DNA from: a virus
IMG/VR virus record: IMGVR_UViG_3300025921_000072
Coordinates: 1 to 21,617 of that record
Reading direction: 5' to 3' (one strand)
DNA: 21,617 nt
Shown here: piece by piece, positions 1 to 20,422 of the stretch
How positions within the stretch are numbered: the stretch's first letter is position 1
How the letters are laid out: every line of letters begins with the position of its first letter
The notes under the pieces: model-generated
Databases searched by the model: none
Seen by the model: the letters and a program-made list of their open reading frames with translations, nothing else
What the model was told of the DNA's origin: nothing
Program-made: the position numbers and the translations under genes

Positions 1-2
1 AC

Positions 3-92
3 ATCTTCATCGGCGCGCTGCTGCTGGGCTGGCTGATCGCCCGCGAGCGCCGCCACCAGCACAATCTGAAGCAGCACAGGGGGCGGCGATGA
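3..92 (+). CDS. C-terminal end of a small membrane protein, holin-like (partial)
   Basis: An open frame enters from the left edge and ends at a TGA that overlaps the lysozyme ATG (ATGA). The 29 visible residues are a hydrophobic stretch (IFIGALLLGWLIA) followed by a basic tail rich in Arg, His and Lys. A membrane span with a positively charged C-terminus, translationally coupled to an endolysin, is the usual look of a class II or III holin, which would make the inner-membrane hole that releases the lysozyme. The N-terminus is outside the window, so the number of spans is unknown. It could also be another small phage membrane protein. Confidence 0.5.
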   Translation: MFIGALLLGWLIARERRHQHNLKQHRGRR

Positions 93-541
93 ACCTGTCC
101 GACCAAGGCATCGAGCTCGTCAAGGAATTCGAGGGCTGCGTCCTGCGCGCCTATCCCGATCCGGCGACGGGCGGCGAGCCGTACACGATCGGCTACGGCC
201 ACACAGAGCGCGGCAAGATCAAGCTGGGCGATACGTGCACGCAGGAACAGGCCGACGACTGGCTGCGCGCCGATGTCCAGTACGCGGTCGCGGCCGTCAA
301 CCATCTGGTGACGGTCGAGCTCGAGCAGCACCAGTTCGACCCGCTGGTGAGTCTCACCTACAACATCGGGCAGGTGGCGTTCGGCAACTCGACGCTGTTG
401 AAGATGCTGAACGCGGGGCAGTTCAATTCTGTGCCCGGCCAGTTCCTGCGCTGGGACAAGGGACCGAACGGCCAGCCGCTTCCGGGCCTCACCAGACGGC
501 GCAAGGCCGAGGCCGCCATGTTCACGGGAGAAGCCGCATGA
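89..541 (+). CDS. Endolysin: GH24 (T4/P22-type) lysozyme
   Basis: This 150-residue protein is the phage muramidase, which cuts the beta-1,4 bond between N-acetylmuramic acid and N-acetylglucosamine at the end of the lytic cycle. The glycoside hydrolase family 24 signature is clear: catalytic Glu15 in the EFEG motif, Asp24 in the YPDP motif and Thr33 in the YTIGYGHT motif. The GGEP insertion between Asp and Thr is common in lambdoid-type endolysins. Length is normal for the family. There is no signal peptide or SAR anchor, so it should be cytoplasmic and depend on a holin. The start is the ATG preceded by a G-rich Shine-Dalgarno and overlapping the preceding stop; the frame is open further upstream but without a better start. 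It overlaps the next gene by ATGA. Confidence 0.95.
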   Translation: MNLSDQGIELVKEFEGCVLRAYPDPATGGEPYTIGYGHTERGKIKLGDTCTQEQADDWLRADVQYAVAAVNHLVTVELEQHQFDPLVSLTYNIGQVAFGNSTLLKMLNAGQFNSVPGQFLRWDKGPNGQPLPGLTRRRKAEAAMFTGEAA

Positions 542-899: not shown

Positions 900-1101
900 C
901 CTCGCGGCCTGCGGTGATCGGCCGGTCGTCGTGACCTCCGTGGACACGCTGTGCACGTCGACCACGCGCTACCATGCGACGGATGGGCAGATCGACCAGT
1001 TCAAGATGGACCCGCTGATGTGGGGGCCTCTGGTGGACTGGCTGGCATCCTTCAACAAGGTTCGGGACGGCGAGTGCCTGAAACCGGCGAAAGGCGGCTG
1101 A
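853..1101 (+). CDS. Outer-membrane spanin lipoprotein, Rz1-like
   Basis: This 82-residue product starts inside the Rz-like gene in a different frame. It has a short basic N-terminus, a hydrophobic segment and a lipobox (LAAC), so it should be lipidated at Cys and held in the outer membrane as the o-spanin partner of the preceding gene. The mature part contains two further Cys residues and is not notably proline-rich, unlike many Rz1 proteins. The ATG at 853 is chosen because a good ribosome binding site precedes it; 862 would also leave a complete lipoprotein signal. The stop lies one base before the next gene. Confidence 0.75.
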   Translation: MYAMRRILTASILCASLAACGDRPVVVTSVDTLCTSTTRYHATDGQIDQFKMDPLMWGPLVDWLASFNKVRDGECLKPAKGG

Positions 1102-1102
1102 C

Positions 1103-1804
1103 ATGGCCACCGCCGACATCCTCGCCCTGTGGAACGACGCCGTCCTGAACATCGGCGCCAAGACCGCCATCGCGTCGCTGACCGAGCAAAGCGCCGAGGC
1201 TGCGGCCTGCGCCCTGCGCTACGAGTCGGTGGTCAAGGCCGCCCTGCGCGGCTCGGACTGGAATTGCGTGCGCATGACCGCCGCGCTGGTCGACGTCACC
1301 GCCGACTTCGCGCCACCGGCGCGCTGGGCCTATCGCTACGCCTATCCCGACGACTGCCTCAGGATCTGGCGCATGGAGACCCCGAGCGGCCTGTGCTGGG
1401 CGTTCCCCCAGCCGCTGGAAGGCTTCGAGATCGCGATGGACGCCGACCCGGGCAACAGCGACCTGCCGACCAAGTACATCTATTCGAACTATACCGACCT
1501 GTCGGCGATCTTCACCCGCTACGCCTTCGACGTGGCGCACGGCTACTATGAGGCGCTGTTCGAGCCCGATCTGAGCGAGGCCATCGGCTGGGCGCTGGCC
1601 TCGGCGATCGCCGGGCCGCTGACCGGCAATCCGGGGATCATGGCCCAGGCCAAGGCCGAGGCGGCGCGCACGCTCGACGTGGCGCGGGCGTCGTCGGCCA
1701 ACGAGAGCGCGCCCAATTCGATGGACGACCCGCCGGCGGAGAGCCTGGGCATCCGGGGCTACAATGCCTACGCGGGTTGGCCCTTTGCGTGGCCGTACAG
1801 GTAG
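1103..1804 (+). CDS. Tail tubular protein A, T7 gp11-like
   Basis: The 233-residue protein has the feel of the podovirus tail tubular protein A family, which forms the gatekeeper or adaptor ring between portal and nozzle. Family-like features are the helical N-terminus with a run of Ala, Glu and Cys around residues 27-40, an ALRGSDWN motif (about residues 48-55), an aromatic YRYAYPDDCLR segment (about 78-88), an Asp/Tyr-rich middle and a long helical C-terminal half. T7 gp11 is 196 residues, so this one is slightly longer. A Shine-Dalgarno (AAAGGCGG) precedes the ATG. It sits directly upstream of the nozzle-like gene, as gene 11 sits before gene 12 in T7. Recognition is by pattern and synteny. 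Confidence 0.85.
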   Translation: MATADILALWNDAVLNIGAKTAIASLTEQSAEAAACALRYESVVKAALRGSDWNCVRMTAALVDVTADFAPPARWAYRYAYPDDCLRIWRMETPSGLCWAFPQPLEGFEIAMDADPGNSDLPTKYIYSNYTDLSAIFTRYAFDVAHGYYEALFEPDLSEAIGWALASAIAGPLTGNPGIMAQAKAEAARTLDVARASSANESAPNSMDDPPAESLGIRGYNAYAGWPFAWPYR

Positions 1805-1807
1805 ACG

Positions 1808-4681: not shown

Positions 4682-5123
4682 AATCCGTCCCGCCACGCTG
4701 GCCGATGCCGCGCTGCTCGAGCTGCGCGCCGCCGACCGCGCCGAGGTCGCGGCCCTGTCCGGCCGTGATCCGCGCGAGGCGCTGGCCGAATCCGTCGAGC
4801 GCTCGGCGATGGCATGGGCCGGGCTGGCCGACGGCCGTCTGGTCTGCCTGTTCGGCGTCGTGCCGGCGAGCCTGGCGGGCGTGACCGGCGTGCCGTGGCT
4901 GTTGGGCTCGGACGACGTCTGCGCCTACTCGCGGGCGTTCCTGCGCCGCAACCGGGCTTATGTGAGCGCCATGCTGGGCGAGTTCCCGGTGCTACGCAAC
5001 GTGGTCGACGCGCGCAACGAGGTCTCGATCCGCTGGCTGCGCTGGCTGGGCTTCACCTTCGGCGAGGCCTGCCCGCTGGGCGTGGCCGGCCTGCCATTCA
5101 TTCCATTCGAGAGGCGGGCATGA
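4665..5123 (+). CDS. T7 gp13-like internal virion/assembly protein (GNAT-like fold)
   Basis: The 152-residue protein starts inside the end of the nozzle gene, with a CGGAG ribosome binding site about 6 bases before the ATG. Its layout resembles T7 gp13 (DUF2833; T7 gp13 is 138 residues): an N-terminal IRPAT motif, a WLLGSDDV motif near residue 83 where gp13 has WFVTSDQV, a long helix of Arg and Lys, and a C-terminal NEVSIRWLRWLGF motif where gp13 has a similar IRFLK-containing segment. In T7, gp13 is needed for infectious particles though it is not kept in the mature virion. Order (after gp12-like, before gp14-like) fits. The fold is acetyltransferase-like, but whether it is an enzyme is unknown. 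Confidence 0.75.
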   Translation: MSPRVEIRPATLADAALLELRAADRAEVAALSGRDPREALAESVERSAMAWAGLADGRLVCLFGVVPASLAGVTGVPWLLGSDDVCAYSRAFLRRNRAYVSAMLGEFPVLRNVVDARNEVSIRWLRWLGFTFGEACPLGVAGLPFIPFERRA

Positions 5124-5572
5124 ACATCGTGCCGGCGACCGTTGCCGGAATCCAGCATGCCGCCACCCTGCCGCGGCTGGCCGCGGAGTACGCCGCCGAG
5201 TCGAGGATCGACGGCCTGCCCGAGCCGATGGCGAAATGGGATACCTACCAACACCTCGAGGCCGCTGGCGCGCTGCATGTGTTCGGCGCGGCCGTCGAGG
5301 GTGCGCTGGTGGGCTTCATCTCGGTTCTGGCGCCGATCTTGCCGCACTACGGCGCGGTGGTGGCGGTGTGCGAGAGCTTCTTCGTGGCCAGGGAGTGGCG
5401 CCATACCGGGGCGGGTCTGGGGCTGCTGAAGGCCGCCGAGGACAAGGCCCGCGAGATCGGCTCTCCCGGCCTGCTGGTGTGCGCGCCGTTCGAGGGCGAC
5501 CTGTTCAAGGTGTTGCCGCGCCGGGGCTACGCCGAGACCAACCGCGTGTTCTTCAAGAAGGTGTCACCGTGA
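5120..5572 (+). CDS. GNAT-family N-acetyltransferase-like protein
   Basis: A 150-residue protein beginning at an ATGA overlap with the gp13-like gene, behind a strong GAGGCGGG site. The sequence has GNAT logic: a central beta hairpin (HVFGAAVEGALVGFISV), a SFFVAREWRHTGAGLGLL segment that matches the acetyl-CoA pyrophosphate-binding R/Q-x-x-G-x-G/A loop (here RHTGAGLG), a helix, and a C-terminal YAETNRVFFKK strand. It probably acetylates or otherwise acylates a protein or small molecule; the substrate cannot be read from sequence. The 50-residue N-terminal part may also be involved. It could be a catalytically active sister of the preceding gp13-like protein, since both share the fold and sit next to each other. 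Confidence 0.8.
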   Translation: MNIVPATVAGIQHAATLPRLAAEYAAESRIDGLPEPMAKWDTYQHLEAAGALHVFGAAVEGALVGFISVLAPILPHYGAVVAVCESFFVAREWRHTGAGLGLLKAAEDKAREIGSPGLLVCAPFEGDLFKVLPRRGYAETNRVFFKKVSP

Positions 5573-6012: not shown

Positions 6013-6599
6013 TGTCGGGCGTCACCACTGCCACGGTCATCGCCGGCGCCGGGCTCGCGCTCTCCGCCGCCAGCACCGCCGCCAGCTTCATGGGCCAGAT
6101 GAACCAGCAGGCCGCGCAGGGCGCGCAGGCCAACTACATGAAGCAGGTGGCGCTCCAGCGCCAGCAGGTGGCCGACCAGCAGTCCGCCGACGCGCTGGCC
6201 CGCGGGCAGGTCAACGAGGACAAGCAGCGCCAGGTCACGGCCTCGCGCATCGGCACGCAGACGGCGGCGCTGGCCGCGCAGGGCACCGACCTGTCCGGCA
6301 GCCCGACCGACATCCTGGGCGACACGGCGCGCGCCGGCGAACAGGACGCGCTCACCGTGCGCAACAACGCGGCCCGCGAGGCCTGGGGCTACAAGGTGCA
6401 GGCCAACAACGCGGGCAACGATGCCGGGCTCTACGGCGGCTTCCAGCCGTCCTACATGGGGGCCGGCGCCTCGCTGCTGTCGGGCGCCGGAACGCTGGCC
6501 GACAAATGGAGCAAGTTCCAGTTCGGCAGCGGCGGCAACGATCCTGTGTCGATCGGCGGCAGCCAGGCCTCCTATGACATTTCCGGGGGCCTCGTCTGA
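6012..6599 (+). CDS. Internal virion protein, T7 gp14-like
   Basis: The product is 195 residues, essentially the size of T7 gp14 (196). It has a small hydrophobic N-terminus rich in Ala and Gly (VIAGAGLALSAASTAASFMG), then a long helical region of Gln, Ala and Arg (NQQAAQGAQANYMKQVALQ), and a Gly/Ser-rich C-terminus. In T7, gp14 is ejected and forms the outer-membrane part of the trans-envelope DNA channel. The ATG follows a GGGAGGC site and overlaps the previous stop. Position directly before the large ejection proteins supports the call; direct residue identity with T7 gp14 is not obvious by eye. Confidence 0.75.
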   Translation: MSGVTTATVIAGAGLALSAASTAASFMGQMNQQAAQGAQANYMKQVALQRQQVADQQSADALARGQVNEDKQRQVTASRIGTQTAALAAQGTDLSGSPTDILGDTARAGEQDALTVRNNAAREAWGYKVQANNAGNDAGLYGGFQPSYMGAGASLLSGAGTLADKWSKFQFGSGGNDPVSIGGSQASYDISGGLV

Positions 6600-9500
6600 T
6601 GGCGACCGTCCAGCCCTATCCGATCCCCACGGTGGCCCCGCAGGCGGCGCCGAACGTCGCCCCGTCGGCCGGTGCCGCCGGCGACGTCGGCCTGTTCGGC
6701 GGCAACCAGGCGCGCGACATGCAGGTCGCCGGCGCCCAGCTCGAGAAGGCCTCGAACAGCGTCGAGAACATCGCCCTGCGCGAGAAGGCCATTGCCGACC
6801 AGACCCGCGTCGAGGGCGAGGTCAACGGCTTCATCTCGGCCAAGCAGAACGCGCTCTATACGGCGCCCGACGCCTTCTACCGCCTGAAGGGCGAGGCCGC
6901 GATCAACGGCGCGCAGGCCGTCACCGACAACCTGATCGACCTCAAGAAGGAGGCGCTGTCCCGGGCGGCGAACGACGACCAGCGGCTGGCGCTCGGCCGC
7001 GCGCTCGATGCCCAGATCACCGACGCCACCAACGGGATTTCCCGCCACGTCGCGGGCCAGAGCCTCGAATGGCAGAAGCAGACGGTGGACACGCGGCTGG
7101 CGCTGGCCGGCCGGAACGCGGCGCTGAACCCCGACGATCCCGACGAGCTGAACAAGAGCCTCGTGGCGGCCGAATCGGCGGGCCAGGAGAAGGCCCGGCT
7201 GCTGGGCGCCACGCCGGGCAGCGACACCGCGAACCTGATCGTCGATCAGGAGAAGTCGAAGATCTACAAGAGCGTGATCCAGACCCAGGTCGACGCCGGC
7301 AAGAAGCGCGCGGCGCTGGCGCTCTACGATTCGGTCAAGGACAATCTGGCGATCAGGGACGACCACAGCCTTGCCGCCGCCATGAAGGGCATCCGCTCGG
7401 AAGTGCTGGGCGCGCAGGCGGCCAACGAGGCGCTGGCCAAGGTCGGCCTGCCGCCGATGCCGAGCGATGACGGCAGCCCCGCCCAGCCGGTGACGCCCGG
7501 CCTGCTGCACCGCGCGCTGGTCGGCCAGGAGAGCGGGGGCCGCCAGACCGACGTCTCGGGCAAGACCCTGACCAGCATCGACGGCGCCAAGGGCGCGGGG
7601 CAGATGATGCCCTCGACCTTCGCCAAGTACGCCCAGCCCGGCGAGAAGATCGACAACGCACAAGACAACCTCCGGGTGTCCAGTCGCATCGTCGACAGCT
7701 ATTTCCAGAAGTACGGCGGCGATCCGCAGCGCGTGGCCGTGGCCTACTTCTCGGGCGAGGGCAACGTGGCCCCGGCGGGCTCGCCCACGCCATGGCTCAA
7801 GGATGCCAAGGACGGCAACGGCAAGTCGGTGTCGTCCTATGTGGCCGACGTCACGCGCCGCATCGGTGGCGCCACGCCGGCACCGTCCCAGGGCACGCCC
7901 TACAAGGGTGACGTCAAGTCGGGCTATGAGCAGGCGGCGCTCGAGATCAGCCAGCGCACGGACCTGAACCGCGAGGACAAGCAGGCCGCGCTCTCGGTGC
8001 TGAGCAAGCAGGGCGCGGCGCTGACCGCATTCCAGGCCGCCGGGGTCAAGAGCCTCAAGGACGAGTTCAACACCACCCTGACCACGGCATTCCTCAGCCC
8101 CGGTCAGGTGAAGCCCGAGCAGTTCACGGCCATGGCCGACCGCGCGGCCTCGCTGGGCGAGCAGGAGTTGGCGACGCGCTATCGCCTCATCGCCTCGATG
8201 CAGGGCACGCTCAAGAACGGCCTGCAGAGCGCGCCGCCGGAACAGCTCAAGATGCTCAAGGAACTGTCGGAAGGCCTGCCCAAGCAGATCATCGAGGGTC
8301 TGCAGAACGGCAACGCCGACCTCGCGACCCGCGCCGGCGACCTGCACGCCAAGCTGAAGCAGGCGATCGACGATGGCCTGCCGGCCAAGAGCCTGACCGA
8401 TCTGGCGCACCAGGCGGCCGACGCCTATGCCGCGGCGGGCAAGCCCGAGAAGGCGCAGGAAGTGGCGGACCTTCACCGGGCGGCCACGGCGGCCGGGAGT
8501 GTTGCCGAATTGCCACCGGTCGAGGCCGAGAAGGCACGTGCGGCACTGGAGCAGAAAGTGGCAGCCGGCCAGGCCACGGCCGAGGACGCCCAGCTCTATC
8601 ACCTGATGACCCAAGGCATCGCCCACCAGACCGCAGCGTTCGCCAAGGATCCGCTGGCCGCCGGCAGCGCGCTCTATGCCGATGTCGGGCCGCTGGCACC
8701 GATCGACTGGAGCAAGCCGCTCGACCCGGCGGTGCTGGCGCGGCGCACCGAACAGGCCGGCTTGACCAGCCAGCACCGCGGCGGGCTCACGGTCAACCCG
8801 TTCACCGCGGGCGAAGTCGCGACCCTGCGCAGCACGCTCGACACGGCGCCGCCCCAGCAACAGGCGGCGATCTTCCGTTCGTTGGCCGGGATGCCGGCCG
8901 AGGCGATTCCGCATGTGGCGGCGGCGCTGGCCGGCAAGACCGAGGGCGACGCCCTGAGCCGGTCGTATGCGGCAGCCCTGTCGTTCTATGCCGATTCCGA
9001 TCCGCAGAGCCAGGCGGTGGCCGGCCTGATCCTCGACGGCGCCCAGCGCCGCAAGGACATGGGCGACAGCGCGCGCAAGCTCACGATGTCTTCGGATGCC
9101 GTGCAGCAGGCCATGCAGGACAAGATCGGTTCGGCCTTCGTCGACATGGGCCGCAAGGTCCCGGCGGTGATGACCGATGCCGTCGAGAGCGTCTACCTGT
9201 CGATGATGGCCCGCGCCGGCCGGCAGGGCGACAAGCTCGACGCCGACGTGTTCGGCCAGGCGCTCGATGCCGTGGTCGGCAAGACCATGGCGCGCAACGG
9301 CCAGACCCTGCTGCCACCCAAGGGCGTCGGACCCTACGAGTTCGACAACGCTCTGCGTAGCCTGTCGGATGGCGACTTCGCGGGCATGACCACGCTCAAC
9401 GGCTCGCCGGTGACGGCGCGCAAGGTGATCGACTACGGCCGGCTGACCAACGCCGGCAAGGACGGACAGTATTTCGTGGCCATGCCGGATTCCGCCAACG

Positions 9501-9673
9501 GTGGGGCGCCGGGCTATGTGATGACGTCCGACGGCAAGCCCTACGTGCTCGACCTCAAGCCGTTGCTCGAGCGGGCACAACGCTTCCCCAGCGGGCTGGC
9601 CGTGACCGGCGAGAGCGCGATCGCCGACCGCCGCCGGGCCCCGGCGTCGCCGACCGCCGATGTGAGCCCGTAA
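6599..9673 (+). CDS. Large internal virion (ejection) protein with lytic transglycosylase domain
   Basis: A 1024-residue protein starting at a TGATG overlap. Residues about 300-400 form an SLT-type lytic transglycosylase domain: catalytic Glu311 in the QESGG motif, GAKGAGQMMPSTF at about 329-341, and the YFSGEGN motif near 383-389. The flanking regions are long Ala, Gln and Lys-rich helices typical of T7 gp15/gp16-type core proteins, which leave the virion and cross the envelope ahead of the DNA; the enzyme opens the peptidoglycan locally. In T7 the transglycosylase is at the N-terminus of gp16, the last of the ejection proteins, whereas here it is in the middle of the first one. There is no signal peptide, as expected for a virion protein. 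Confidence 0.88.
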   Translation: MATVQPYPIPTVAPQAAPNVAPSAGAAGDVGLFGGNQARDMQVAGAQLEKASNSVENIALREKAIADQTRVEGEVNGFISAKQNALYTAPDAFYRLKGEAAINGAQAVTDNLIDLKKEALSRAANDDQRLALGRALDAQITDATNGISRHVAGQSLEWQKQTVDTRLALAGRNAALNPDDPDELNKSLVAAESAGQEKARLLGATPGSDTANLIVDQEKSKIYKSVIQTQVDAGKKRAALALYDSVKDNLAIRDDHSLAAAMKGIRSEVLGAQAANEALAKVGLPPMPSDDGSPAQPVTPGLLHRALVGQESGGRQTDVSGKTLTSIDGAKGAGQMMPSTFAKYAQPGEKIDNAQDNLRVSSRIVDSYFQKYGGDPQRVAVAYFSGEGNVAPAGSPTPWLKDAKDGNGKSVSSYVADVTRRIGGATPAPSQGTPYKGDVKSGYEQAALEISQRTDLNREDKQAALSVLSKQGAALTAFQAAGVKSLKDEFNTTLTTAFLSPGQVKPEQFTAMADRAASLGEQELATRYRLIASMQGTLKNGLQSAPPEQLKMLKELSEGLPKQIIEGLQNGNADLATRAGDLHAKLKQAIDDGLPAKSLTDLAHQAADAYAAAGKPEKAQEVADLHRAATAAGSVAELPPVEAEKARAALEQKVAAGQATAEDAQLYHLMTQGIAHQTAAFAKDPLAAGSALYADVGPLAPIDWSKPLDPAVLARRTEQAGLTSQHRGGLTVNPFTAGEVATLRSTLDTAPPQQQAAIFRSLAGMPAEAIPHVAAALAGKTEGDALSRSYAAALSFYADSDPQSQAVAGLILDGAQRRKDMGDSARKLTMSSDAVQQAMQDKIGSAFVDMGRKVPAVMTDAVESVYLSMMARAGRQGDKLDADVFGQALDAVVGKTMARNGQTLLPPKGVGPYEFDNALRSLSDGDFAGMTTLNGSPVTARKVIDYGRLTNAGKDGQYFVAMPDSANGGAPGYVMTSDGKPYVLDLKPLLERAQRFPSGLAVTGESAIADRRRAPASPTADVSP

Positions 9674-11550
9674 TGGCCGGCCTTCTCGACCTCTACGCGG
9701 CGCAGGCTGGACCCGCGGGCCCTGCACTGATCCAGCCGCCCAGCACGGCAGGCGAGCGCTTCTCGGCCGAACAGGGCGCGGCCACGGCCCCGGATCGCTA
9801 CTTCAACCTCAACGCCTCGCGCCGGGAGTGGTTCGGCAAGGCCGCGGCCGAGCTTCAGGCCGAGACCGGCAAGACCTTCGCCAACCCCTACGATCCGCCG
9901 ACGCACGAGGAACTGTTTAAGGACGGCGTGGCCGTGCCGCCCGTCCAGATCGAGACCGACCGGCGCAATGCGCTGATCGAGGCCAACCGCCAGTTGCGCG
10001 AGATCAAGCCCGACGCGATCGACGCCGAGGGCATCGACACCTTCATCGGCGTGGCGGGCGATGCGGCACGCCAGAAGGCGGCAGAACTGTCCAACACCGG
10101 CAACGGGCTGGCGGCCTTCGCCGGCGGAGCGCTGGCCTTGACGCCCGAGAACGTGATCGGCGCCATGATCCCGCCGGGCCGCGCCGTGCTGGGCGCTACC
10201 ATGGTGGGTCGGTCGTTCCTGGGCGGCGTGCTGCGCGAGGGGGGCTATCAGGGCGTGACACAAGGGGCGCTGACTGCCGGCGCCGAAGGGCTCGACGTGC
10301 TGGCCCGGCGCGAGACCGGCACGGCCCCCGACGGGGGAGAGATCGCGGCCAATGTCGCCCTGGGCGTGGCGGGTGGTGCGGTTCTGGGCGCGGGCTTCCA
10401 CGCCCTGCACGCCGGGCCGCGCGCCCTGTGGGAGCGCTGGAACGCCCTGCCGGAACCGGCCCGCGCCAATGCCCCGCTGGAAGTGCGCGACGCCATGGCG
10501 ACCCTGCAGCCCGAGGCGATCTACCGGGACGCCAACCGGTTGGGCCTGCCGTGGGACCTGCACGAGCGCTATCAGGGCCGCGCGCTCGACGCGGTGATGC
10601 GCGGCCAGGCCGTGGCGCTCGACGAACTGCAGCCGGGCGACATGCCGATGACCGGCCTCGCCACGATCCTGCGCGGGGCGCCCGACCAGATCCGGGTCGA
10701 GGGCCTGGGCAACACGGTTCCCCGCATCGCCAGCCTGCCCGACAGCGAGATCGAGCAGTTGGGGCGCCAGTTGAGGCCCGAGACCTTCGCGCCGCTCGAC
10801 GCCATCGACCAGAAGCTGCAGGCCCTCGACCAGCGGACACAGGCCATCCACCAGGAGGCCCAGCAGATCGGCCTCGCCGACGTGGCCGACATCGACACCG
10901 CGGCCCGTCTGCAGGACATCGAAACCCGCCTGCAGCAAAAGAACCTGCGCAAGACCGTGCGCGCCGACCTGGAGCGCGAGCGCGAGACCATCAACCAGAG
11001 CATCGACCCCAACGGGCAACTGACCGAGGAACTGAAGACCACCCGCCGGGACTTCTTCCCCCAGCACGCCGAGGACCTGAAGGCGATAGAGACTGAGCGC
11101 GCGGGCCTGATGCAGCAGCGCGAGGCCGCGCAGTCGGTGGCCGCGCGCGAGATCGAGGCCATGCGCAAGCGGCTGGATTCGCTGCCGGCCGGGTCGCAGT
11201 TCGGCGACGAGGCCTCGCCCGGCCTGCTGGGCGCCGAGTTCGGCAAGCCGGAGGATGTGGCCAAGGCGCTGGAGGCCGCCGACTTCAACCGCACGGTGCG
11301 CATGGCGCAGGAGATTGGCCCGACCGCGACCCGCGCCGTCGAAATGCCGGTCCCCAAGGAAACTGCCGGCGCCGCGCCCGTCGAGCGCCCGGAGATCGAG
11401 GCTGCCGCAAAGGCCGTGATGGAAGGCAAGGGCGGGGCGCTGGCCGACTTCCGCAAGGCCGTGGCCAAGGAAATGGACGGGCTCGATCTCGAATTGAAGG
11501 ACGCGCAGGCCGCCGCGAACTGCGTCGCCAACGGAGGGTCGATCCCATGA
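9673..11550 (+). CDS. Internal virion (ejection) protein, 625 residues
   Basis: The frame starts at a TAATG overlap with the transglycosylase gene and ends in an ATGA overlap with the next. The N-terminal 120 residues are mixed and polar. Residues about 140-260 are Gly/Ala-rich and weakly hydrophobic (FAGGALALTPENVIGAMIPP; NVALGVAGGAVLGAGFHAL), looking like membrane-inserting segments. Residues about 380-520 are strongly helical, probably coiled coil (KLQALDQRTQAIHQEAQQ; RADLERERETINQ). This mix, and the place between two other large core proteins, suggests a part of the DNA-ejection channel. I do not recognise a named domain. The C-terminus (from about 545) is low-complexity, rich in Ala and Pro. 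Confidence 0.72.
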   Translation: MAGLLDLYAAQAGPAGPALIQPPSTAGERFSAEQGAATAPDRYFNLNASRREWFGKAAAELQAETGKTFANPYDPPTHEELFKDGVAVPPVQIETDRRNALIEANRQLREIKPDAIDAEGIDTFIGVAGDAARQKAAELSNTGNGLAAFAGGALALTPENVIGAMIPPGRAVLGATMVGRSFLGGVLREGGYQGVTQGALTAGAEGLDVLARRETGTAPDGGEIAANVALGVAGGAVLGAGFHALHAGPRALWERWNALPEPARANAPLEVRDAMATLQPEAIYRDANRLGLPWDLHERYQGRALDAVMRGQAVALDELQPGDMPMTGLATILRGAPDQIRVEGLGNTVPRIASLPDSEIEQLGRQLRPETFAPLDAIDQKLQALDQRTQAIHQEAQQIGLADVADIDTAARLQDIETRLQQKNLRKTVRADLERERETINQSIDPNGQLTEELKTTRRDFFPQHAEDLKAIETERAGLMQQREAAQSVAAREIEAMRKRLDSLPAGSQFGDEASPGLLGAEFGKPEDVAKALEAADFNRTVRMAQEIGPTATRAVEMPVPKETAGAAPVERPEIEAAAKAVMEGKGGALADFRKAVAKEMDGLDLELKDAQAAANCVANGGSIP

Positions 11551-14039
11551 GCATCGAAAGCTGCATCGCCGAGGCGCTGGCCGCCGGCAAGATCACGGCC
11601 AAGGGCGCCGACCAGTACAAGGCGCACATGAAGGACGCCGAGGCGGTGGCCGAGCAGAAGGGGCTTGCAGGCCCGGACGCCTATATCTTCGCCACCACCG
11701 AGGCGGCCAAGGCCATGGAGCAGCGCGCCACCAGCCGCCGCGCGCAGACGCAGACCACCATTCTTGCGATCGACCGTGCCTGGGCCGGAGCCCTGAAGAA
11801 CGAGAAGGGCCTGGCGTTCGGCCTGACCGACGTGTTCGGCGAGCATCTGTATGGCGCGGGGTCCGGTTCATCGCTGGCCCAGCAGCATCGCGGCAACCTT
11901 GCGCTGTTCCAGTCGATCATGGCCGACTCGCTGGCCCAGCTTCAAAGCCGGGCCTTTGGCCTGAAGCAGGAGAAAATCCTGCCCACCGACACCGTGCGCG
12001 CGCTCTACGGCGCCACCGGCAGCAAGGGCGGCGCCGCGGCGGCCAAGGCGTGGGATCAGGCGGTCACCCTGTGGCGCGACGAGATGCAGCGCGCCGGGGT
12101 GTTCGTGCGCGAGCTCGCCGACTGGCGGCTGCCGCAGCATTTCGATCAGGGCGCGGTGAAGGCCCTTGGCCCCGATGGATTCGTGAACCAGATGGGCCAG
12201 TGGTTCCATGACGGCAAGCTGCGCCTGCGGGACTGGGAGGCCGATGGGCAGGCCTATCTGGTGCCGGGCCGGGCCGACGAGCGCGCGCGCGAGATTTTCC
12301 AACGTGCCTACGACAACATCACGACCAACGGCGACGCCTCGCTCGATCCGGGGGCGCTCAAGATCACCACCCTAGCCGACAGGTACGGCCGGCGCCGGGC
12401 CTTCGAGTGGGCGACCGACGATGCGTGGCTGGAGTTCAACCGCACCATGGGCGTCGGCGACGATGCCATCGGCGAACTGATGGTGCGCCACATGGACGGC
12501 ATGGCCAAGAACCTCGCCACCGCCCAGGTGCTGGGCCCCGATCCCGACCGGGCAGCCAAGATCCTGCTGCAGATGTACCGCAAGGAGACCGGGAGCAAGT
12601 TCTGGGCGAACCGTCTGGAGGCGATGTACGAGATCAACGCCGGTCACGCCATGCAGCCGGTCAGCCAGCGGCTGGCGCTGGGCGCGCAGTCGTTCCGGCA
12701 ATTCCTGTCGTCGGCGCAGTTGGGCGGCGCGGTGCTGTCATCGACGTCGGACTTCGGCTTCACCAAGGCGACGGCGGCCTGGCACGGCCTCGACATGACC
12801 AGGATCATGGCCGACTACGTGTCCAACCTCGGCAAGAATTCGGTCGAGGCCCGGGCGCAGGCCATGAAGGACGGCCTCATCCTCGAGGTCGGCCTGCGCG
12901 GGCTGCACGACGCGGCGCGCGACACCATCGGCGATGTGGTGGCCGGCAAGGGCGTCGGCGGCAAGGTCGATGCGGCGCTGAACGGCCTGTCCCGCGTGAC
13001 CGGCCGCATGTCGGAGGTCGTGATCCGGGCGCAGGGCCTGGCCCACCACACCCAGGCGCTGCGCGACGCCATCGGCTCGCAGGTGATGTCCCATCTCGGC
13101 GGTCTGGCCGGCACGTCGTGGGAGAAGATGGGCCCGGTCGACAAGCGGCTGTTCACGACCTACGGCATGGGCAAGAAGGAATGGGACGCCCTGCGCAAGG
13201 GCGCGCTCAACCAGGGCTTCCTCGACCCGGCGAAGCTGGCCCGCGAGGGCGAGGGCGCCGCCCGCGATGCCGCAGTGAAAATGCTGGGCGCCATCGCTGG
13301 CCTCCAGCGCACGGCGGTGCCCGAGGGCAATTCGATCACCCGGGCGCTGATGCTGGGCAAGACCCAGGCCGGCACCTGGGAGGGCGAATTCCTGCGCTCG
13401 GTCGCCCAATACAAGGGCTTCCCCATGGGGGCGATGATGATGCACGCCTTCCGCGGCATGGAGAGTTTCGCCGACAAGGACGGGCAGTGGTTCCGCGGCC
13501 AGTACGTGGCCAACCTGATCGTCAACACCACGGTGCTGGGCGCCGCGGCGCTCCAGCTCAAGAATCTCGCGGCCGGCAAGGACCCCGAGCCGATGGATGG
13601 CAAGCACGCGGCCCGGTTCTGGCTCAACGCCTTTGCCCAGGGCGGCGCCGGCGGCATCTTCGGCGACCAGCTCAAGGCCATGTTCAGCGCCCAGCGCATG
13701 GACGATCCGAGCCGGCTGCTGACTCCGGCGGCCGGCTTCATGCTCGACATGAAGCAACTGGCGTTCGGCAAGGTGCAGGACGCGGCCAACGAGCGAGAGG
13801 GCCACGGCGGACGGGAGGTCACGCGGCTGTTGCACAAGTACGTGCCGGGCGTGTTCTACACGCGCCTCGCGCTCGACCGGCTGGTGCTCGACACGCTGCA
13901 GAAACGGCTCGACCCCGACAGCGCGAGCGCCTTCGCCCGGCAGGAAGATCGCGCGCGCAAGGAACAGCAGACGCAGTTCTGGTGGCGTCCGGGATCGAGC
14001 AGCCCGCGGGCCCCGGATCTCGGGCGGGCGGTGCAGTAG
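11547..14039 (+). CDS. Internal virion (ejection) protein, 830 residues, T7 gp16-like position
   Basis: The last gene of the + strand block, starting at an ATGA overlap. It is a long, mainly helical protein with amphipathic and weakly hydrophobic stretches, for example around FLSSAQLGGAVLSSTSDFG (residues about 390-410) and NLIVNTTVLGAAALQLKNLA (about 655-675). The C-terminal 100 residues are basic and end in a polar, Pro-rich tail. Proteins of this size and layout are commonly found as the last large ejection protein in podovirus prophages. No catalytic motif is visible; the transglycosylase expected in T7 gp16 is in the first of the three ejection genes. The role is inferred from position and composition. 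Confidence 0.72.
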   Translation: MSIESCIAEALAAGKITAKGADQYKAHMKDAEAVAEQKGLAGPDAYIFATTEAAKAMEQRATSRRAQTQTTILAIDRAWAGALKNEKGLAFGLTDVFGEHLYGAGSGSSLAQQHRGNLALFQSIMADSLAQLQSRAFGLKQEKILPTDTVRALYGATGSKGGAAAAKAWDQAVTLWRDEMQRAGVFVRELADWRLPQHFDQGAVKALGPDGFVNQMGQWFHDGKLRLRDWEADGQAYLVPGRADERAREIFQRAYDNITTNGDASLDPGALKITTLADRYGRRRAFEWATDDAWLEFNRTMGVGDDAIGELMVRHMDGMAKNLATAQVLGPDPDRAAKILLQMYRKETGSKFWANRLEAMYEINAGHAMQPVSQRLALGAQSFRQFLSSAQLGGAVLSSTSDFGFTKATAAWHGLDMTRIMADYVSNLGKNSVEARAQAMKDGLILEVGLRGLHDAARDTIGDVVAGKGVGGKVDAALNGLSRVTGRMSEVVIRAQGLAHHTQALRDAIGSQVMSHLGGLAGTSWEKMGPVDKRLFTTYGMGKKEWDALRKGALNQGFLDPAKLAREGEGAARDAAVKMLGAIAGLQRTAVPEGNSITRALMLGKTQAGTWEGEFLRSVAQYKGFPMGAMMMHAFRGMESFADKDGQWFRGQYVANLIVNTTVLGAAALQLKNLAAGKDPEPMDGKHAARFWLNAFAQGGAGGIFGDQLKAMFSAQRMDDPSRLLTPAAGFMLDMKQLAFGKVQDAANEREGHGGREVTRLLHKYVPGVFYTRLALDRLVLDTLQKRLDPDSASAFARQEDRARKEQQTQFWWRPGSSSPRAPDLGRAVQ

Positions 14040-14292
14040 CCCTCAGCGATCGACAAGGGGAATGGATCTCAACGCCGCCGGGGTAGGCATCCACTCGGCC
14101 ATCATTGGTTCTTCCTCAGGGGGACATATAAAGGCGTGGAACAAACCGCGTCCGCTTCCCCCGATCTTCCCCCGGTGTTTCGGGCGCGTTCTGGTCGGTT
14201 CGGGCAGGTTTCCACAGGCGGCCATTATGTAAGCCGCTCGCCGCAGTATGCCATAAAATGCACGCGGGGTTGAGTTTTATTATATCGGACAA
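14040..14292. other. Convergent intergenic region, left arm of attP
   Basis: About 250 bases separate the end of the late operon from the attachment core. The part next to the core is AT-rich (an ATAAAA at 14253 and a TTTTAT at 14275 form a weak inverted repeat), in sharp contrast to the GC-rich surroundings, which fits an integrase or IHF binding arm. The 7-mer TTCGGGC occurs at 14179 and 14199, two helical turns apart, a possible arm-type site. A weak hairpin (CCCG/CGGG near 14171-14184) has no T-run, so no terminator is claimed. A 20-codon frame on the - strand is listed separately. Confidence 0.4.
14043..14105 (-). CDS. Possible 20-residue peptide (weak candidate)
   Basis: On the - strand an ATG-ATG pair is preceded at about 5 bases by GAGGAAG, a good Shine-Dalgarno, and opens a 20-codon frame ending in TGA just after the end of the late operon. 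The peptide is unremarkable (MMAEWMPTPAALRS and so on) and has no recognisable domain. Only the ribosome binding site argues for it, so this is a low-confidence call. Confidence 0.15.
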   Translation of the reverse strand: MMAEWMPTPAALRSIPLVDR

Positions 14293-14339
14293 TGGTGGGC
14301 GCGGTAGGGATTGAACCTACGACCCCACCCGTGTGAAGG
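14293..14339 (-). other. attP core: 3' part of a tRNA-Val(CAC) gene
   Basis: Read on the - strand this is the 3' part of a tRNA: anticodon loop TTCACAC (anticodon CAC, valine), 3' anticodon stem GGGTG, variable loop GGGTC, a perfect 5-bp T stem (GTAGG/CCTAC) around TTCAATC, the acceptor strand CGCGCCC, discriminator A and CCA. The sequence before the anticodon loop cannot pair with GGGTG beyond the closing positions, and there is no D arm or 5' acceptor strand, so it is not a functional tRNA. Integrases often use exactly this tRNA segment as the crossover core, and the integrase gene stops 10 bases away. The phage copy would restore the host tRNA on integration. Confidence 0.8.
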
Positions 14340-14349
14340 CGGGGGCAAG

Positions 14350-15351
14350 TCATTGGCGCGCAACCTTTTTGGCAGATTTTCCCCTCTTTTTCCCCTTGAG
14401 CAAAAGCACCACGCCGCGCTCGCCAACGGCGGTCGAACGGTGGTGCACGTACCTTGCGGCAGATCGCTCGTCGCGCCACAGCCCGCGCTCGGTGATGGCC
14501 TTCATGTCGTATCCCAGCGCCCGCATATCGGTCGCCATGGCGTGCCGGCTCTGGTGTGGCGTGTAGGAGACCTTTAGGCGCTTACAGAGGGGTTTCAGCC
14601 ACCTGTAGACGTTGTGCCGGTCGCCCCAAGGGAAGACGCGCCCAGAGGCCAATTTCGGGGTGTTGGCGAGCATCGCCACGAGACGGGGGCTGAGTCCAAT
14701 TTCGCCATGGTCGTCGGTCTTGCGCGAGCCTACGCGGGCGATGCCCCTCTTAAGTTCAAGATCAGCCCACAAGAGTCGCAGCGTATCGCCAATCCTTTGC
14801 CCTGTCTCATAGAGCCATGCCAGTAAAAGGCGCTGGTGCCCGTCTGTGTTGCCGAGCAGTAGTCGCATTGTAGCTTCACTGGCGGGGGATTTTTTTGACC
14901 GACGGGAAAACGAGGGACGACGTATGCGACGGTAGGCGCACCAGTCTTGTTCGGCGGCGTAGTGGAGGATCGCGGAGCATGGCGTGTAGACATAACGCAC
15001 CTTGGTTTCGTTCTGGACTTTGGGGCAGAGGGCGTCGGCGGCCTGCCGGATGTCATCGCTCTTGATCTCGCGGACATCCCGCGTGCCCATGTGGGCGATC
15101 AACTTGTTGATCCATTTCGCGTCGTCCTTGCGTGGCTTCTTCCACGCCATGTAGGCGCGGGCGGCATGGGCGAACGTCACTATCTCGTCGGGAGCGCGAC
15201 CATGGATGCTCGCGAGGAAGTCGTCGGCCTCTCTCTTTGCATCTGGCCGAGTCGTCGCTTCCAATACTTTTTCAACTTGCCGTCCATTGACGTGGGCGCG
15301 GACAACATAGGTCCGGTTGCCCTTGCGGGTTCCTGGCGCGTAGAACTGCAT
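14350..15351 (-). CDS. int: Tyrosine recombinase / phage integrase
   Basis: A 333-residue tyrosine site-specific recombinase. The N-terminal 55 residues (RTYVVRAHVNGRQVEKVLEA) resemble the beta-sheet arm-binding domain, residues about 58-140 the core-binding helical domain, and residues about 155-310 the catalytic domain. Catalytic residues are visible: Arg186 in ETGQRIGD, Lys211 in SRKTDD, His266 and Arg269 in TPHQSRH, Trp292 in the place of the second His, and the nucleophile Tyr301 in AARYVHH. The C-terminus is Lys-rich. It should catalyse integration and, with a directionality factor, excision at the tRNA-Val(CAC) site that directly follows its stop codon. An AAAGGAA site 7 bases upstream and an in-frame stop further up fix the ATG at 15351. 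It overlaps the HTH gene by 172 bases. Confidence 0.95.
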   Translation of the reverse strand: MQFYAPGTRKGNRTYVVRAHVNGRQVEKVLEATTRPDAKREADDFLASIHGRAPDEIVTFAHAARAYMAWKKPRKDDAKWINKLIAHMGTRDVREIKSDDIRQAADALCPKVQNETKVRYVYTPCSAILHYAAEQDWCAYRRIRRPSFSRRSKKSPASEATMRLLLGNTDGHQRLLLAWLYETGQRIGDTLRLLWADLELKRGIARVGSRKTDDHGEIGLSPRLVAMLANTPKLASGRVFPWGDRHNVYRWLKPLCKRLKVSYTPHQSRHAMATDMRALGYDMKAITERGLWRDERSAARYVHHRSTAVGERGVVLLLKGKKRGKSAKKVARQ

Positions 15352-15521
15352 CCCCGTTCCTTTGCTTTCAGCGTCTCAAGATCCTCGGCCCCGATCCGCG
15401 CCCTACGGCCCGTGCCGATGGTCGCAATTCCATGCCGAGCCAGCGCCCGCGTCAATGTCCGGCGCGTCCAGCCCATGTGGGCGGCGGCATCCGGTAGAGA
15501 CAGAAGCGTCGGCTCACTCAT
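15180..15521 (-). CDS. Excisionase-like helix-turn-helix DNA-binding protein
   Basis: The first 55 residues after the ATG at 15521 (LLSLPDAAAHMGWTRRTLTR, then HGIATIGTGRRARIGAEDL) form a MerR/excisionase-type winged helix-turn-helix that ends in a helix. Such proteins set the direction of the integrase and can repress it. The rest of the 113-residue frame, about 57 residues, is read out of frame through the start of the integrase gene and has no fold-like features. HTH genes overlapping the start of an integrase are common in alphaproteobacterial prophages. An upstream in-frame Met (15587) lacks a ribosome binding site and would overlap the HNH gene; 15521 has a weak GGGA at 9 bases. Confidence 0.65.
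   Translation of the reverse strand: MSEPTLLSLPDAAAHMGWTRRTLTRALARHGIATIGTGRRARIGAEDLETLKAKERGCSSTRQEPARATGPMLSAPTSMDGKLKKYWKRRLGQMQRERPTTSSRASMVALPTR
15357..15363 (-). promoter_or_regulatory. Ribosome binding site of the integrase gene
   Basis: AAAGGAA on the - strand lies 5 bases (AAAGG core: 7) before the ATG at 15351. It is inside the coding frame of the overlapping HTH gene and decides that the integrase starts here, with its full arm-binding domain, rather than at a later Met. Confidence 0.5.
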
Positions 15522-15553
15522 TACACAGGTCCCTGAGTTGGAGTTTGAAGGGG

Positions 15554-16027
15554 CTACGCGCCCGATGACGGGTGGCCGGTAAGCCATCCATAAGATCGGC
15601 CGCCTCGAATATCGGCAATGGAAGCTTGGCTGACTCCATAGTCGCTTGAGACCAAAGCCCTAGGTCTTTTGTCCGCGTATATTTTGAGAACTTCTTCGGC
15701 CTTCAGTTTCCTATTGCCTCGCTGCTTGCGCGCGCGGTCTAGGGAATTGTCGGCGTCGGTTCCGAGGAACAGGTGATTGACGTTGACGCAGCAGGGGACG
15801 TCGCACTTGTGGCAAACGAGCAGTCCCGCTGGGATCGGCCCTTTCGCCAGCGCCCACGCGACTCGATGGGCAGCGTAGGTTTTGCCTTCCCAAAATATTT
15901 TCCCGTGACCGATGCCATGGACGCTGCCGGTCCAGAGGAGGCAGCCACTATTGGGCTCCGGCATTGAGTAGAATTCCAGACGCTGCCCGAGCGTCCAATT
16001 TCTCGTTTCATTGTTCGCGTGGGCCAT
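15554..16027 (-). CDS. HNH endonuclease, homing type (first copy)
   Basis: A 157-residue protein. Residues about 27-95 carry the zinc-containing HNH domain seen in I-HmuI-like and phage homing endonucleases: GCLLWTG, KTYAAHRVAW, then VCHKCDVPCCVNVNHLFLGT, giving Cys72, His73, Cys75, Cys79/80, His85 and Asn94. Residues about 107-146 look like a small helix-turn-helix DNA-binding tail (EEVLKIYADK, VSQASIADIRGG). It would nick or cut specific DNA and spread its own gene. A very strong AAGGAGT site precedes the ATG by 6 bases. Its DNA is less GC-rich than its neighbours, in line with recent arrival, and its start and stop do not overlap the operon genes, unlike the rest. Confidence 0.88.
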   Translation of the reverse strand: MAHANNETRNWTLGQRLEFYSMPEPNSGCLLWTGSVHGIGHGKIFWEGKTYAAHRVAWALAKGPIPAGLLVCHKCDVPCCVNVNHLFLGTDADNSLDRARKQRGNRKLKAEEVLKIYADKRPRALVSSDYGVSQASIADIRGGRSYGWLTGHPSSGA

Positions 16028-17889: not shown

Positions 17890-18311
17890 GCCGCGCTCCG
17901 TTCACAATGCAGCTTCACAAACGCCCGCGCCTCGTCCCGCTCAGGATCTCGGCAGCCGGCGAGAACCGACAGGATCATGCCGTAGGGGTCGATGCCCTGG
18001 GACCGCCACCAGCGGGCCTCATCGCCTGTTCTGTGCAAGGCGTCGGGTGCGATCGTGTGGTGCCACTGGCACAGCGGCAGGCACAGCAGGTCGGATATCC
18101 GCTTGCCTGTCGTGCGCGGGAAAAGGCCCTTGGGATGGTGCGCCTCGGTCGGGTGCTGCTGGTGGCCGTTGAAGCAGCACAGGCACGGCCGGGACCGGAT
18201 ATGGACCAGCCACGCGGCGTTGCGTGTCGGCCCCTTGTCGTCCAAGCGGCGGGTGGTGGCCTTCGGGATGAACGACTCTGGCCGAGTGAAGGGCTTCTTG
18301 CGGGCGAGCAT
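17886..18311 (-). CDS. Ref/DUF968-like HNH nuclease
   Basis: A 141-residue protein with an ATGA overlap to the ATPase gene. The pattern is that of Ref-type and DUF968 phage HNH proteins: HIRSRPCLCC (Cys43, Cys46), PTEAHH (His58, His59), GKRISDLLCLPLCQWHH (Cys77, Cys81, His84, His85), and a helical C-terminus. P1 Ref is a RecA-dependent nuclease that enhances recombination. Here the gene sits right after an exonuclease and a RecA-fold ATPase, so a role in recombination or in processing strand-exchange intermediates is likely. It lacks the long disordered N-terminus of P1 Ref. Whether it needs RecA is not shown. Confidence 0.78.
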   Translation of the reverse strand: MLARKKPFTRPESFIPKATTRRLDDKGPTRNAAWLVHIRSRPCLCCFNGHQQHPTEAHHPKGLFPRTTGKRISDLLCLPLCQWHHTIAPDALHRTGDEARWWRSQGIDPYGMILSVLAGCRDPERDEARAFVKLHCERSAA

Positions 18312-19258
18312 CAGGCCGCCTGCTTTGCCGGCGTGAAGGCGTCATCCAGCGGGTCGGCCTCGCTGCCGATCGTTGCGGGGGCCTTCTCGGCTTCGTCGGC
18401 GTCGGCCTGGTTGGCGATCATCTTCAGTTCCTCGATCATCGAGGCGAGGCGCTGGCGCTGGGTCTTGGTGAGCTCGGTTTCCCACCAAGCGCGCATCTTC
18501 ACACTGCCCTCGGCGGCCTTGTCGCGGGCGTTGCGCTTCAGATCCTCGATCTCGCGGTTGACGGCCACGCCGCCAGCGACCCATTCCGCGATCTTCGTCC
18601 CGGTCTCGATGCCGAGCGGCTTGTCGAGCGGGATGGCCGCCACGATGTCCTCCGGGGCCTTGATCGGCACGACGGGCGCGTGGGTCTCGGGCGAGAGCTG
18701 TACGCCCACGGTCATCTCGAAGATGAAGTTCTTCTCCATGATCGGCGTGAGGCCCTGGCTGACGATCTCGGTCTTGCTGCCGTTGCGGACCTGGACGTAC
18801 TTCTCCTTGGCTCGCAGGCAGAAGATCACATGCACGGGAGAGCGCAGGAGATTGTTCATCATGCGCTTGTAGGCGATCTTGGGGGCCTTCCACTTCGCCA
18901 GCCCCTTGTCGTCGCTGCTGTCGGCCTGGTCGAGCGTGCCGCCTTCGCCTTCCCAGACGTGGGACATGCTGTCGATGACGATCACGTCGGCGCCGGCCTT
19001 CTCGGCCGACAGCATCGCCTCGGTGTAGCGCTGGGCCGTGAACGGCGGCTGAAAGTCGATATGCTGCCAGCCGCCCACCATGCTGGCGTAGAACTTCGCG
19101 CGCCCGTTCTCGGTGTCGATGACCACGATCTTGCCCTTGGGGCCGACCAGCCCGCGAGCGACCAGCAGGGCCGAATAGGTCTTGCCGGAACCGGACGGCC
19201 CCCACAGGCCGATCAGCGCCGGGGTGGCTTCGCGTACAGCATCTTTCACAACGAACAT
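18311..19258 (-). CDS. Sak4/RecA-fold AAA-family ATPase, phage recombinase-associated
   Basis: A 315-residue ATPase with Walker A (GPSGSGKT, Lys26) and Walker B (ADVIVIDSMSH, Asp96), followed by a RecA-like core up to about residue 215 (VHVIFCLRAKEKY). It resembles Sak4-type single-strand annealing ATPases and other short RecA-fold proteins that phages pair with an exonuclease. The C-terminal 95 residues are helical, and the end is acidic (SEADPLDDAFTPAKQAA). The start has an AGGAGAG site at 19263-19269 which overlaps the stop codon of the exonuclease gene. In the cell it should bind ssDNA made by that exonuclease and drive pairing; no SSB gene is visible in the window. Confidence 0.82.
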   Translation of the reverse strand: MFVVKDAVREATPALIGLWGPSGSGKTYSALLVARGLVGPKGKIVVIDTENGRAKFYASMVGGWQHIDFQPPFTAQRYTEAMLSAEKAGADVIVIDSMSHVWEGEGGTLDQADSSDDKGLAKWKAPKIAYKRMMNNLLRSPVHVIFCLRAKEKYVQVRNGSKTEIVSQGLTPIMEKNFIFEMTVGVQLSPETHAPVVPIKAPEDIVAAIPLDKPLGIETGTKIAEWVAGGVAVNREIEDLKRNARDKAAEGSVKMRAWWETELTKTQRQRLASMIEELKMIANQADADEAEKAPATIGSEADPLDDAFTPAKQAA

Positions 19259-19267
19259 GGCTCTCTC

Positions 19268-20422
19268 CTAGTCCAAGGCCCAAAGCGGGAAGTCAGCATC
19301 GAGGAAAGGCCGGATCGGCTGCGGGTCGATCCACGGTGTGTCGGTGCCGTAGTGCTCCAGGCACTCGCGGTACTTGGTGACGGCCTGCCGGAACATCGCA
19401 TGGCCTTTCGCCCAGTAGAGGTTCTCGTCGCCCCGCGCGGCCTCGCGCTGCTTGAACTCGCGGACCCGCACGTTCGGCACGTCGCCGGTTTCGAGGAACA
19501 TGAACACGAAAGTATGCGGGCCGGGTGCGGCGAAGGCTTTCAGCCACTCGGTCGAGGGCGGGTTGCCGAACACGATCTTGCCGCCCAGCTTGTTGAGCAT
19601 CGCCTTGGCGGCTTCGATGGCGTCCAGCCGCACGACGGCATCGACGAAATACTTGTTGTTCGCCACCGTGCCGGAAACCGCGGCATCGACGGTCTTGCCG
19701 AACGGGTTGGTGAAGGTCTTGAGCTCGACCGCGGCGCGCACCTTCAGGTAGTCGATGCGGGCCTTCATCGGCACACCGGTTTCCTTGTCGATGTAGAAGA
19801 TGGACACTTCGCAGTAGCCGCCGCGCAGGGCCTTCTCGGTGCCGGGGTGCATCTCGACGATGCGGGCCTGGCGCTGGATGTCGTCGGCCAGCCGCTGCTT
19901 GATGATCGTCTTGCCGGCGGCGACGGCTTCCTCCTGAAAGTTCAGCATGATCTCGGGCCACAAGACGGCGCTGGAATCGGCCTCGCGGATGCGCTCGCAC
20001 AGCTTGGCGATCGATCCGCCGACCGGCAGGCCCAGATCCTTGCAACGCGCCTTCAGAGCCTCGCCACCGTCGATGGCATCGGGATAGTCGGCGATCTGCG
20101 GCGCCACGGCGTACCGTTCGGAGAAGGCGTCGATGCCTTCCAGCAGCCGGGCGTGAAACGCCTTGCCGCGCTCCTTGGCCTCGCTCGGATCGTCGGTGCG
20201 CGCCGCGTTGAACGGCGAGTGCATCCAGAACGTGAGGGGCGAGACGTGCACGTCCTTGATGCCGGACGCCGAGAGCGACGGGTCCTCGTGGTACTCATCC
20301 TCGGGCATCCCGAAGTAGATGCCGGGGGCATGGGCGCCGATGGCGGGCAGCGGCTTCCGCGCCGCGCTGCCGGGCATCGCGTCGAGGATGTCGCCCACGG
20401 TGCCGATCCGGGTATCAGGCAT
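19268..20422 (-). CDS. RecE/PD-(D/E)XK exonuclease with SAP-like insert
   Basis: A 384-residue nuclease. The N-terminus has the RecE-type signature YHEDPSLSASGIKDVHVSP (residues about 44-62) and RGKAFHARLLEG with His90. Later come GGYCEVSIFY (Glu205), KARIDYLKV (Asp224) and VELKT (Glu233, Lys235): the H..E..D..ExK metal site of the RecB/RecE family. It should resect 5' ends of dsDNA to give the 3' tails used by the ATPase. Between His90 and Glu205, residues about 121-147 (LKARCKDLGLPVGGSIAKLC) resemble a SAP-type DNA-binding helix pair. A clear AGGAG site lies about 9 bases before the ATG. The C-terminus is compact and typical of the family. Confidence 0.88.
   Translation of the reverse strand: MPDTRIGTVGDILDAMPGSAARKPLPAIGAHAPGIYFGMPEDEYHEDPSLSASGIKDVHVSPLTFWMHSPFNAARTDDPSEAKERGKAFHARLLEGIDAFSERYAVAPQIADYPDAIDGGEALKARCKDLGLPVGGSIAKLCERIREADSSAVLWPEIMLNFQEEAVAAGKTIIKQRLADDIQRQARIVEMHPGTEKALRGGYCEVSIFYIDKETGVPMKARIDYLKVRAAVELKTFTNPFGKTVDAAVSGTVANNKYFVDAVVRLDAIEAAKAMLNKLGGKIVFGNPPSTEWLKAFAAPGPHTFVFMFLETGDVPNVRVREFKQREAARGDENLYWAKGHAMFRQAVTKYRECLEHYGTDTPWIDPQPIRPFLDADFPLWALD

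Follow-up and report, generated by a model that had tools for sequence, protein, structure and literature searches.

The window, by which we mean the whole 21,617-base stretch analysed here, is a linear IMG/VR virus record whose ORFs run off both ends; a scripted search for direct terminal repeats of 12-199 bases gave none. Its left half, on the plus strand, encodes an endolysin, spanin-like ORFs (a label that is our own reading, given without a family match), tail proteins, internal virion proteins and an 830-residue virion protein. The right half, on the minus strand, carries the integrase, a small helix-turn-helix-like partner, HNH endonucleases, an AAA protein and an exonuclease VIII-like protein. 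Between the two lies a tRNA-derived attP core, flanked by phage DNA on both sides, the integrase on one and the late virion genes on the other (Table 1). No complete tRNA gene was detected in the window by ARAGORN. The 20 window ORFs scanned against PHROG gave no match to terminase, portal or major capsid families, and these genes probably lie outside the record, which holds about half a genome when set against the 39-42 kb of phiV10 and BcepC6B. The G+C content is 69% in the late half and 63% in the early half, a wider gap than in BcepC6B (66/65%) or phiV10 (49/49%).

Table 1. Genes and attachment-site features of the window, by position
Feature	Position	Strand	Evidence
Endolysin, cut by record start	2..541	+	PHROG 7, E 2.8e-56
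Tail protein	1103..1804	+	PHROG 394, E 1.2e-34
Tail protein, 957 aa	1808..4681	+	PHROG 376, E 2.4e-182; relatives in 32 of 76 host-order genomes
Acetyltransferase-like protein, late region	5117..5572	+	PHROG 1249, E 3.5e-08 on longer ORF 4814-5572; 62% identical in the contig of L002
1024-aa protein	6599..9673	+	Matches to endolysin, virion and tail PHROG families
Late protein, 625 aa	9673..11550	+	No family match; in G066 a protein of 37% identity adjoins the relative of the 830-aa protein
Virion structural protein, 830 aa, last late gene before attP	11547..14039	+	PHROG 684, E 5.7e-109; 56% identical over full length in G066
P' arm, between core and last late gene	14040..14292	-	14211-14155 82% identical to L030 over 57 bases, E 1.9e-11
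Putative integrase sites of the P' arm, a pair of G4A-rich repeats 11 bases apart	14155..14172	-	Identical in L030 (4361), similar in L002 (2624)
attP core, 3' part of tRNA-Val(CAC) to CCA	14339 down to 14293	-	47 bases; exact in genome stretches
Tyrosine integrase, 333 aa	14350..15351	-	PHROG 1, E 3.5e-34; Pfam PF00589, E 7.8e-17
Putative integrase sites of the P arm, a pair of G4A-rich repeats 11 bases apart	14378..14395	-	Inside the 3' coding end of the integrase; same place in L002 (2428)
ORF containing, in its N-terminal part, a small conserved protein (helix-turn-helix-like by eye)	15180..15587	-	Overlaps integrase start; no Pfam match
AAA ATPase, Sak4-like by weaker match	18311..19258	-	PHROG 1366 (E 6.5e-71), PHROG 124 (E 2.8e-08), PF13479
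Exonuclease VIII-like protein	19268..20422	-	PHROG 412, E 7.3e-46

Several of these products deserve comment. The small helix-turn-helix-like protein is 75% identical over 60 residues to one in L002, a locus within a 52,458-base phage contig that is a separate IMG/VR record from the window, and 56-58% identical to those in L088, L098 and L099. Two HNH endonuclease genes in the early region (15554-16027 and 17341-17889), both assigned to PHROG 1872, may specify homing endonucleases, and a relative of these adjoins the endolysin gene in the contig of L002. The 957-residue tail protein has a Pfam E1_FCCH match at residues 114-171, and some 165 of its residues (126-291) fall between the two aligned pieces of its relative in L074. 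For the 830-residue protein, a scan of the viral contigs found nothing, and identity was 26-29% among the best 20 of 91 phage records. The ORF at 20825-21373 has a signal-like start and was read by eye as resembling periplasmic ClpP-like proteins, with a weak match to PHROG 19619 and none in Pfam.

The core was confirmed to be what the initial annotation had described, namely a 47-base 3' fragment of tRNA-Val(CAC) ending in CCA, 10 bases from the stop codon of the integrase, with late genes about 250 bases further on; the nearest late ORF, that of the 830-residue protein, ends 253 bases beyond the core. The start of the fragment had been placed at the anticodon loop, and this needs a small correction: it does fall in the anticodon region, at position 29 of a 75-base gene with its anticodon at 33 according to ARAGORN, that is, in the anticodon stem, two bases before the loop. 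An exact tRNA end of 47 bases adjoining an integrase far exceeds chance. Moreover, 71 exact copies of the 47-mer are present in 70 stretches of the genome contigs, all of which bear alphaproteobacterial names or the title Proteobacteria MAG, and in 68 of these 70 loci ARAGORN placed it within a complete tRNA-Val(CAC) gene. The match to a host tRNA-Val(CAC) gene, on which the initial annotation had made its reading depend, was thus found, and it supports the 3' end of this bacterial gene as the probable target of the core.

Some copies are of other kinds. That in L017 is truncated by the contig end, and that in L040 (4507-4553, minus strand) is a bare core adjoining an ORF read by eye as integrase-like. 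A search of the viral contigs, a collection that may omit records very close to the window, gave an exact match to 28 bases of the core in one stretch, L003, where the same 47-base tRNA-Val(CAC) end (383-429, minus strand) lies beside a different integrase, 27% identical to that of the window. Since the 47-mer adjoins other kinds of integrase in L003 and L040, several integrase lineages seem to use the tRNA-Val(CAC) target. L065 contains two exact copies 404 bases apart (1022-1472, minus strand), one within an intact tRNA-Val(CAC) gene and the other bare, with neither a repeat pair nor an obvious element beside the bare copy; this doubled core is perhaps the scar of a largely deleted element.

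Two pairs of G4A-rich repeats flank the core: read along the minus strand, one precedes it by 38 to 56 bases and the other follows at a distance of 120 to 138 bases. Of the pattern GGGGARR-N4-GGGGARR the window contains exactly two instances (minus strand, at 14395 and 14172), both next to the core, and the 12,445 bases of L002 likewise contain exactly two, one on each side of its core. The 885,370 bases of the other loci examined hold two more, one by the tRNA-Val gene of L030 and the other by a tRNA-Glu end in L097. When the P' stretch was simulated with a one-step Markov model, the pair arose in 0.015% of 20,000 runs. A relaxed form of the pair lies within 300 bases after the core at three of 77 core copies, some of which have less than 300 bases of flank; the three are those of the window, L002 and L030. 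In the viral contigs no match to the exact 19-base P' pair was found. As counted by eye, the two pairs of one element differ at 5 of 18 positions in the window, at 2 of 18 in L002 and at 1 of 18 in an element of genome G062 that is described below. We infer that the pairs are putative integrase-binding arm sites.

The contig of L002 joins in a single piece, and in the order of the window, relatives of the tail protein (29% identity, E 4e-31) and of the acetyltransferase-like protein (62%), an ivpB match, a core with two mismatches, and an integrase 63% identical to that of the window. The ivpB match is weak (40% over 58 residues, E 1e-4), and the contig gave no match to the 830-residue protein. 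Its endolysin (39% identity) is encoded between the virion genes and the core, while that of the window precedes the tail genes; its late region also includes an ORF of 3,356 residues (L131 3976-14046; PHROG 9880). By linking related halves, this contig supports the view that the two halves of the window would belong to one phage.

Taken together, these features indicate that the window is very probably a genome fragment of a temperate BcepC6B/epsilon15-like phage, short-tailed to judge by its tail and internal virion genes, and that it spans an uncut attP. The integrase would bind the repeat pairs as arm sites and recombine the core with the part of the host tRNA-Val(CAC) gene that runs from the anticodon to CCA. 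Since the phage brings an identical 3' end, it is proposed that the host tRNA gene would remain intact. Integration would place this whole tRNA beside the P' arm and the late genes (attL), and the integrase end beside the bare 47-mer (attR).

L030, the end of a contig of a bacterial metagenome-assembled genome, looks like the attL that such an attP predicts, in that a whole tRNA adjoins the late-gene side. A host gene, HAD-like by eye, is followed by a complete tRNA-Val(CAC) gene at 4190-4264 and then by DNA resembling part of the P' arm of the window (Table 1), with an identical 19-base repeat pair. Further on, the sequence is 72% identical over 328 bases to phage contig L075 and contains a reading frame that is spanin-like by eye. 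The P' arm of L030 is adjoined by lysis-like genes, again by eye, and not by a relative of the 830-residue protein. A relative of the 957-residue tail protein is encoded on a different contig of the same genome. This genome gave no integrase match at E<=1e-3, so that its matching attR was not seen; of the two junctions that had been suggested for related lysogens, an attL-like one was thus recovered and its attR was not. The search for prophages at tRNA-Val(CAC), likewise suggested, yielded no lysogen with both halves of the window phage at that gene.

Relatives of the integrase were found at other sites. In the genomes bearing the core, 9 of 48 gave an integrase match at E<=1e-3; the best, in genome G043 (E 8e-62), lies beside a tRNA-Glu end rather than tRNA-Val, and the other eight were weak (E 5e-22 or worse). 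Five of these eight weak-match loci were scanned with ARAGORN, and none of the five gave a tRNA gene. A script that searched all nine loci for the final 30 bases of the core, allowing up to six mismatches, gave a single find, a tRNA-like copy with five mismatches in L092. Integrases 36-42% identical to that of the window (L088, L097 and L099) adjoin 3' ends of tRNA-Glu(CTC) that start at the anticodon region, and intact tRNA-Glu genes are present on other contigs of these three genomes. In L088 the tRNA-Glu end is followed by an ORF that is LysR-like by eye, as host DNA would follow in an integrated prophage. No tRNA 3' end was recognised by its T-arm pattern in L098 or in the short L100. A further arrangement was seen in contig C36 of G062 (L128), a genome of the Reyranella/Enhydrobacter order. 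Here two bare tRNA-Glu(CTC) ends enclose a 12.7-kb segment (1364-14032), repeat pairs stand just inside both ends, and an integrase relative lies outside the segment; this looks like a tandem-like stacking of elements at one tRNA gene. The prophage on contig C66 of G066, which encodes the relative of the 830-residue protein (56% identity), was considered for an insertion at tRNA-Val and rejected, a tRNA-Phe-like 3' end being present 4.4 kb later. The naming of that fragment as resembling the 3' end of tRNA-Phe is our assumption.

Many of the 70 stretches with the exact core have Sphingomonadales names, and Sphingomonas-type hosts were for this reason the first candidates. They were set aside after comparison with 76 genomes that represent the order of Enhydrobacter aerosaccus ATCC 27094 (G041; L057) and include G042 and G045, the genomes behind loci titled Reyranellaceae (L061) and Reyranella (L067). 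We take the GTDB name of this order to be Reyranellales; NCBI places Reyranellaceae in the Hyphomicrobiales. The exact core is present in 16 of the 76 genomes. Integrase relatives at E<=1e-40 were found in five of the 76 and in none of 396 Sphingomonadales genomes or of 385 genomes sampled from the class; the query that drew this blank in the Sphingomonadales did match in the host-order search. Relatives of the 957-residue tail protein at E<=1e-10 were present in 32 of the 76 genomes versus 16 of 376 Sphingomonadales (best there 1e-57), and at E<=1e-80 in 30 of the 76 (by eye) versus none of the 376. These contrasts are approximate, since few candidates per genome were scored in the large searches. 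The 830-residue protein had relatives at E<=1e-10 in two of the 76, once with 56% identity over its full length. The last 45 bases of the L002 core, in which A replaces C, occur exactly in three of the 385 sampled class genomes, all three within the 76; in each of them a T in the tRNA could pair with the changed A, and core variants therefore seem to track host variants. On this distribution of relatives, bacteria of the Reyranella/Enhydrobacter order are the most likely hosts. Little phage literature was found on this order (for Reyranella and prophage, neither word appeared in titles or abstracts), and none was found that combines tRNA-Val, attP, integrase and Sphingo.

More broadly, we lean slightly towards a little-described BcepC6B-like temperate lineage that is widespread in Reyranella-type bacteria. 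Its integrase family may have switched between tRNA-Val(CAC) and tRNA-Glu(CTC), always at the anticodon region and with the same arms (G4A pairs 11 bases apart), tracking single-base changes in the host tRNA.

An uncut attP implies that the sequenced DNA is most likely excised or packaged phage DNA. The initial annotation had taken the sequence for a free phage genome with an uncut attP. The second part is most likely right, in view of the repeat pairs on both sides, the layout of L002 and the attL-like junction of L030. As to the first, the DNA is most likely not integrated, and yet what we have is a fragment, linear, without end repeats and with ORFs off both ends. The uncut attP speaks against a single prophage of the ordinary sort; a junction of tandem prophages sharing one tRNA would be compatible with it. 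Two different, related prophages at the same tRNA-Val(CAC) gene, one contributing the integrase and early side and the other the P' arm and late genes, would likewise read integrase, core, P' arm and late genes, and the tandem-like arrangement in G062, with its two bare tRNA-Glu ends 12.7 kb apart and its integrase relative outside, leaves this explanation some weight. The differences between the two repeat pairs of the window and the step in G+C content at the junction are in its favour as well. On the other hand, on the contig of L002 an integrase of this type is independently linked, in the same order, to the core and to related tail genes, BcepC6B shows this order as a single phage, and tandem insertions are rare, with 125 tandem cases against 3919 islands in the figures that PMC4383910 gives for Islander. 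Altogether we regard a tandem junction as unlikely; that the halves stem from two different adjacent prophages, which the initial annotation had named as the finding that would tell against it, is a reading for which no clear sign was found.

Still less probable is an assembly chimera, in which attL reads of one phage and attR reads of another were joined through the shared 47 bases. The 47-mer is present in many host genomes and beside other integrases (L003 and L040), and a short-read assembler could cross from one to the other at such a sequence. Usual read lengths, however, exceed 47 bases; in addition, phage DNA with matching repeat pairs flanks the core on both sides, and the layout is repeated in L002, a separate record. 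That the core is a captured tRNA remnant without a role in integration, as the bare tRNA end of L065 (404 bases from an intact gene, with no obvious element or repeat pairs) might suggest, is the least probable reading, since the core of the window adjoins an integrase, has repeat pairs on both sides and is matched by the attL-like junction of L030.

With a temperate phage fragment spanning its attP as the preferred reading, the window is now tied to a precise insertion target and, most likely, to a bacterial order on which little phage literature was found. Related integrases at two tRNA targets with similar arm repeats also form a small natural collection in which target change by tyrosine integrases could be studied. 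Systems of this kind are well known and the mechanism is ordinary; what is new here lies in the arm repeats, the attL-like junction and the host order.

Among known phages, BcepC6B (NC_005887) resembles the window in having late tail and virion genes, a convergent integrase in mid-genome and early genes with an exonuclease, all in one phage, and its counterpart of the 830-residue virion protein is 28% identical over 79% of the length. It differs in that its virion gene and integrase are separated by tail fibre and lysis genes, whereas in the window the endolysin and spanin-like ORFs precede the tail genes, and it is absent from the five phage records whose DNA encodes a match to the window integrase. 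The order of virion genes (tail, tail, internal proteins, protein of the 830-residue class) is common to the window, BcepC6B and phiV10, although the int gene of phiV10 is on the strand of the late genes and the integrase of the window is on the opposite one. The Escherichia phages phiV10, epsilon15 and ZX5 (Uetakevirus) also have attP beside the integrase, as described in PMC9782041, but there the three share a core of 17 bases and the target of ZX5 is the 3' end of guaA and no tRNA. Metagenomic phages have been assigned to hosts through an attP identical to a tRNA, with a tRNA-Val case among those presented in PMC3861242, and the same logic appears in PMC5831537; the host in PMC3861242 is an actinobacterium, while for the window an alphaproteobacterial match is joined by an attL-like junction and prophage relatives. 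Finally, the islands catalogued by Islander, with 2083 anticodon-centred sites in the account of PMC4383910, carry like the window a 3' tRNA fragment that begins in the anticodon region; those islands are integrated, and the window reads as an uncut attP.
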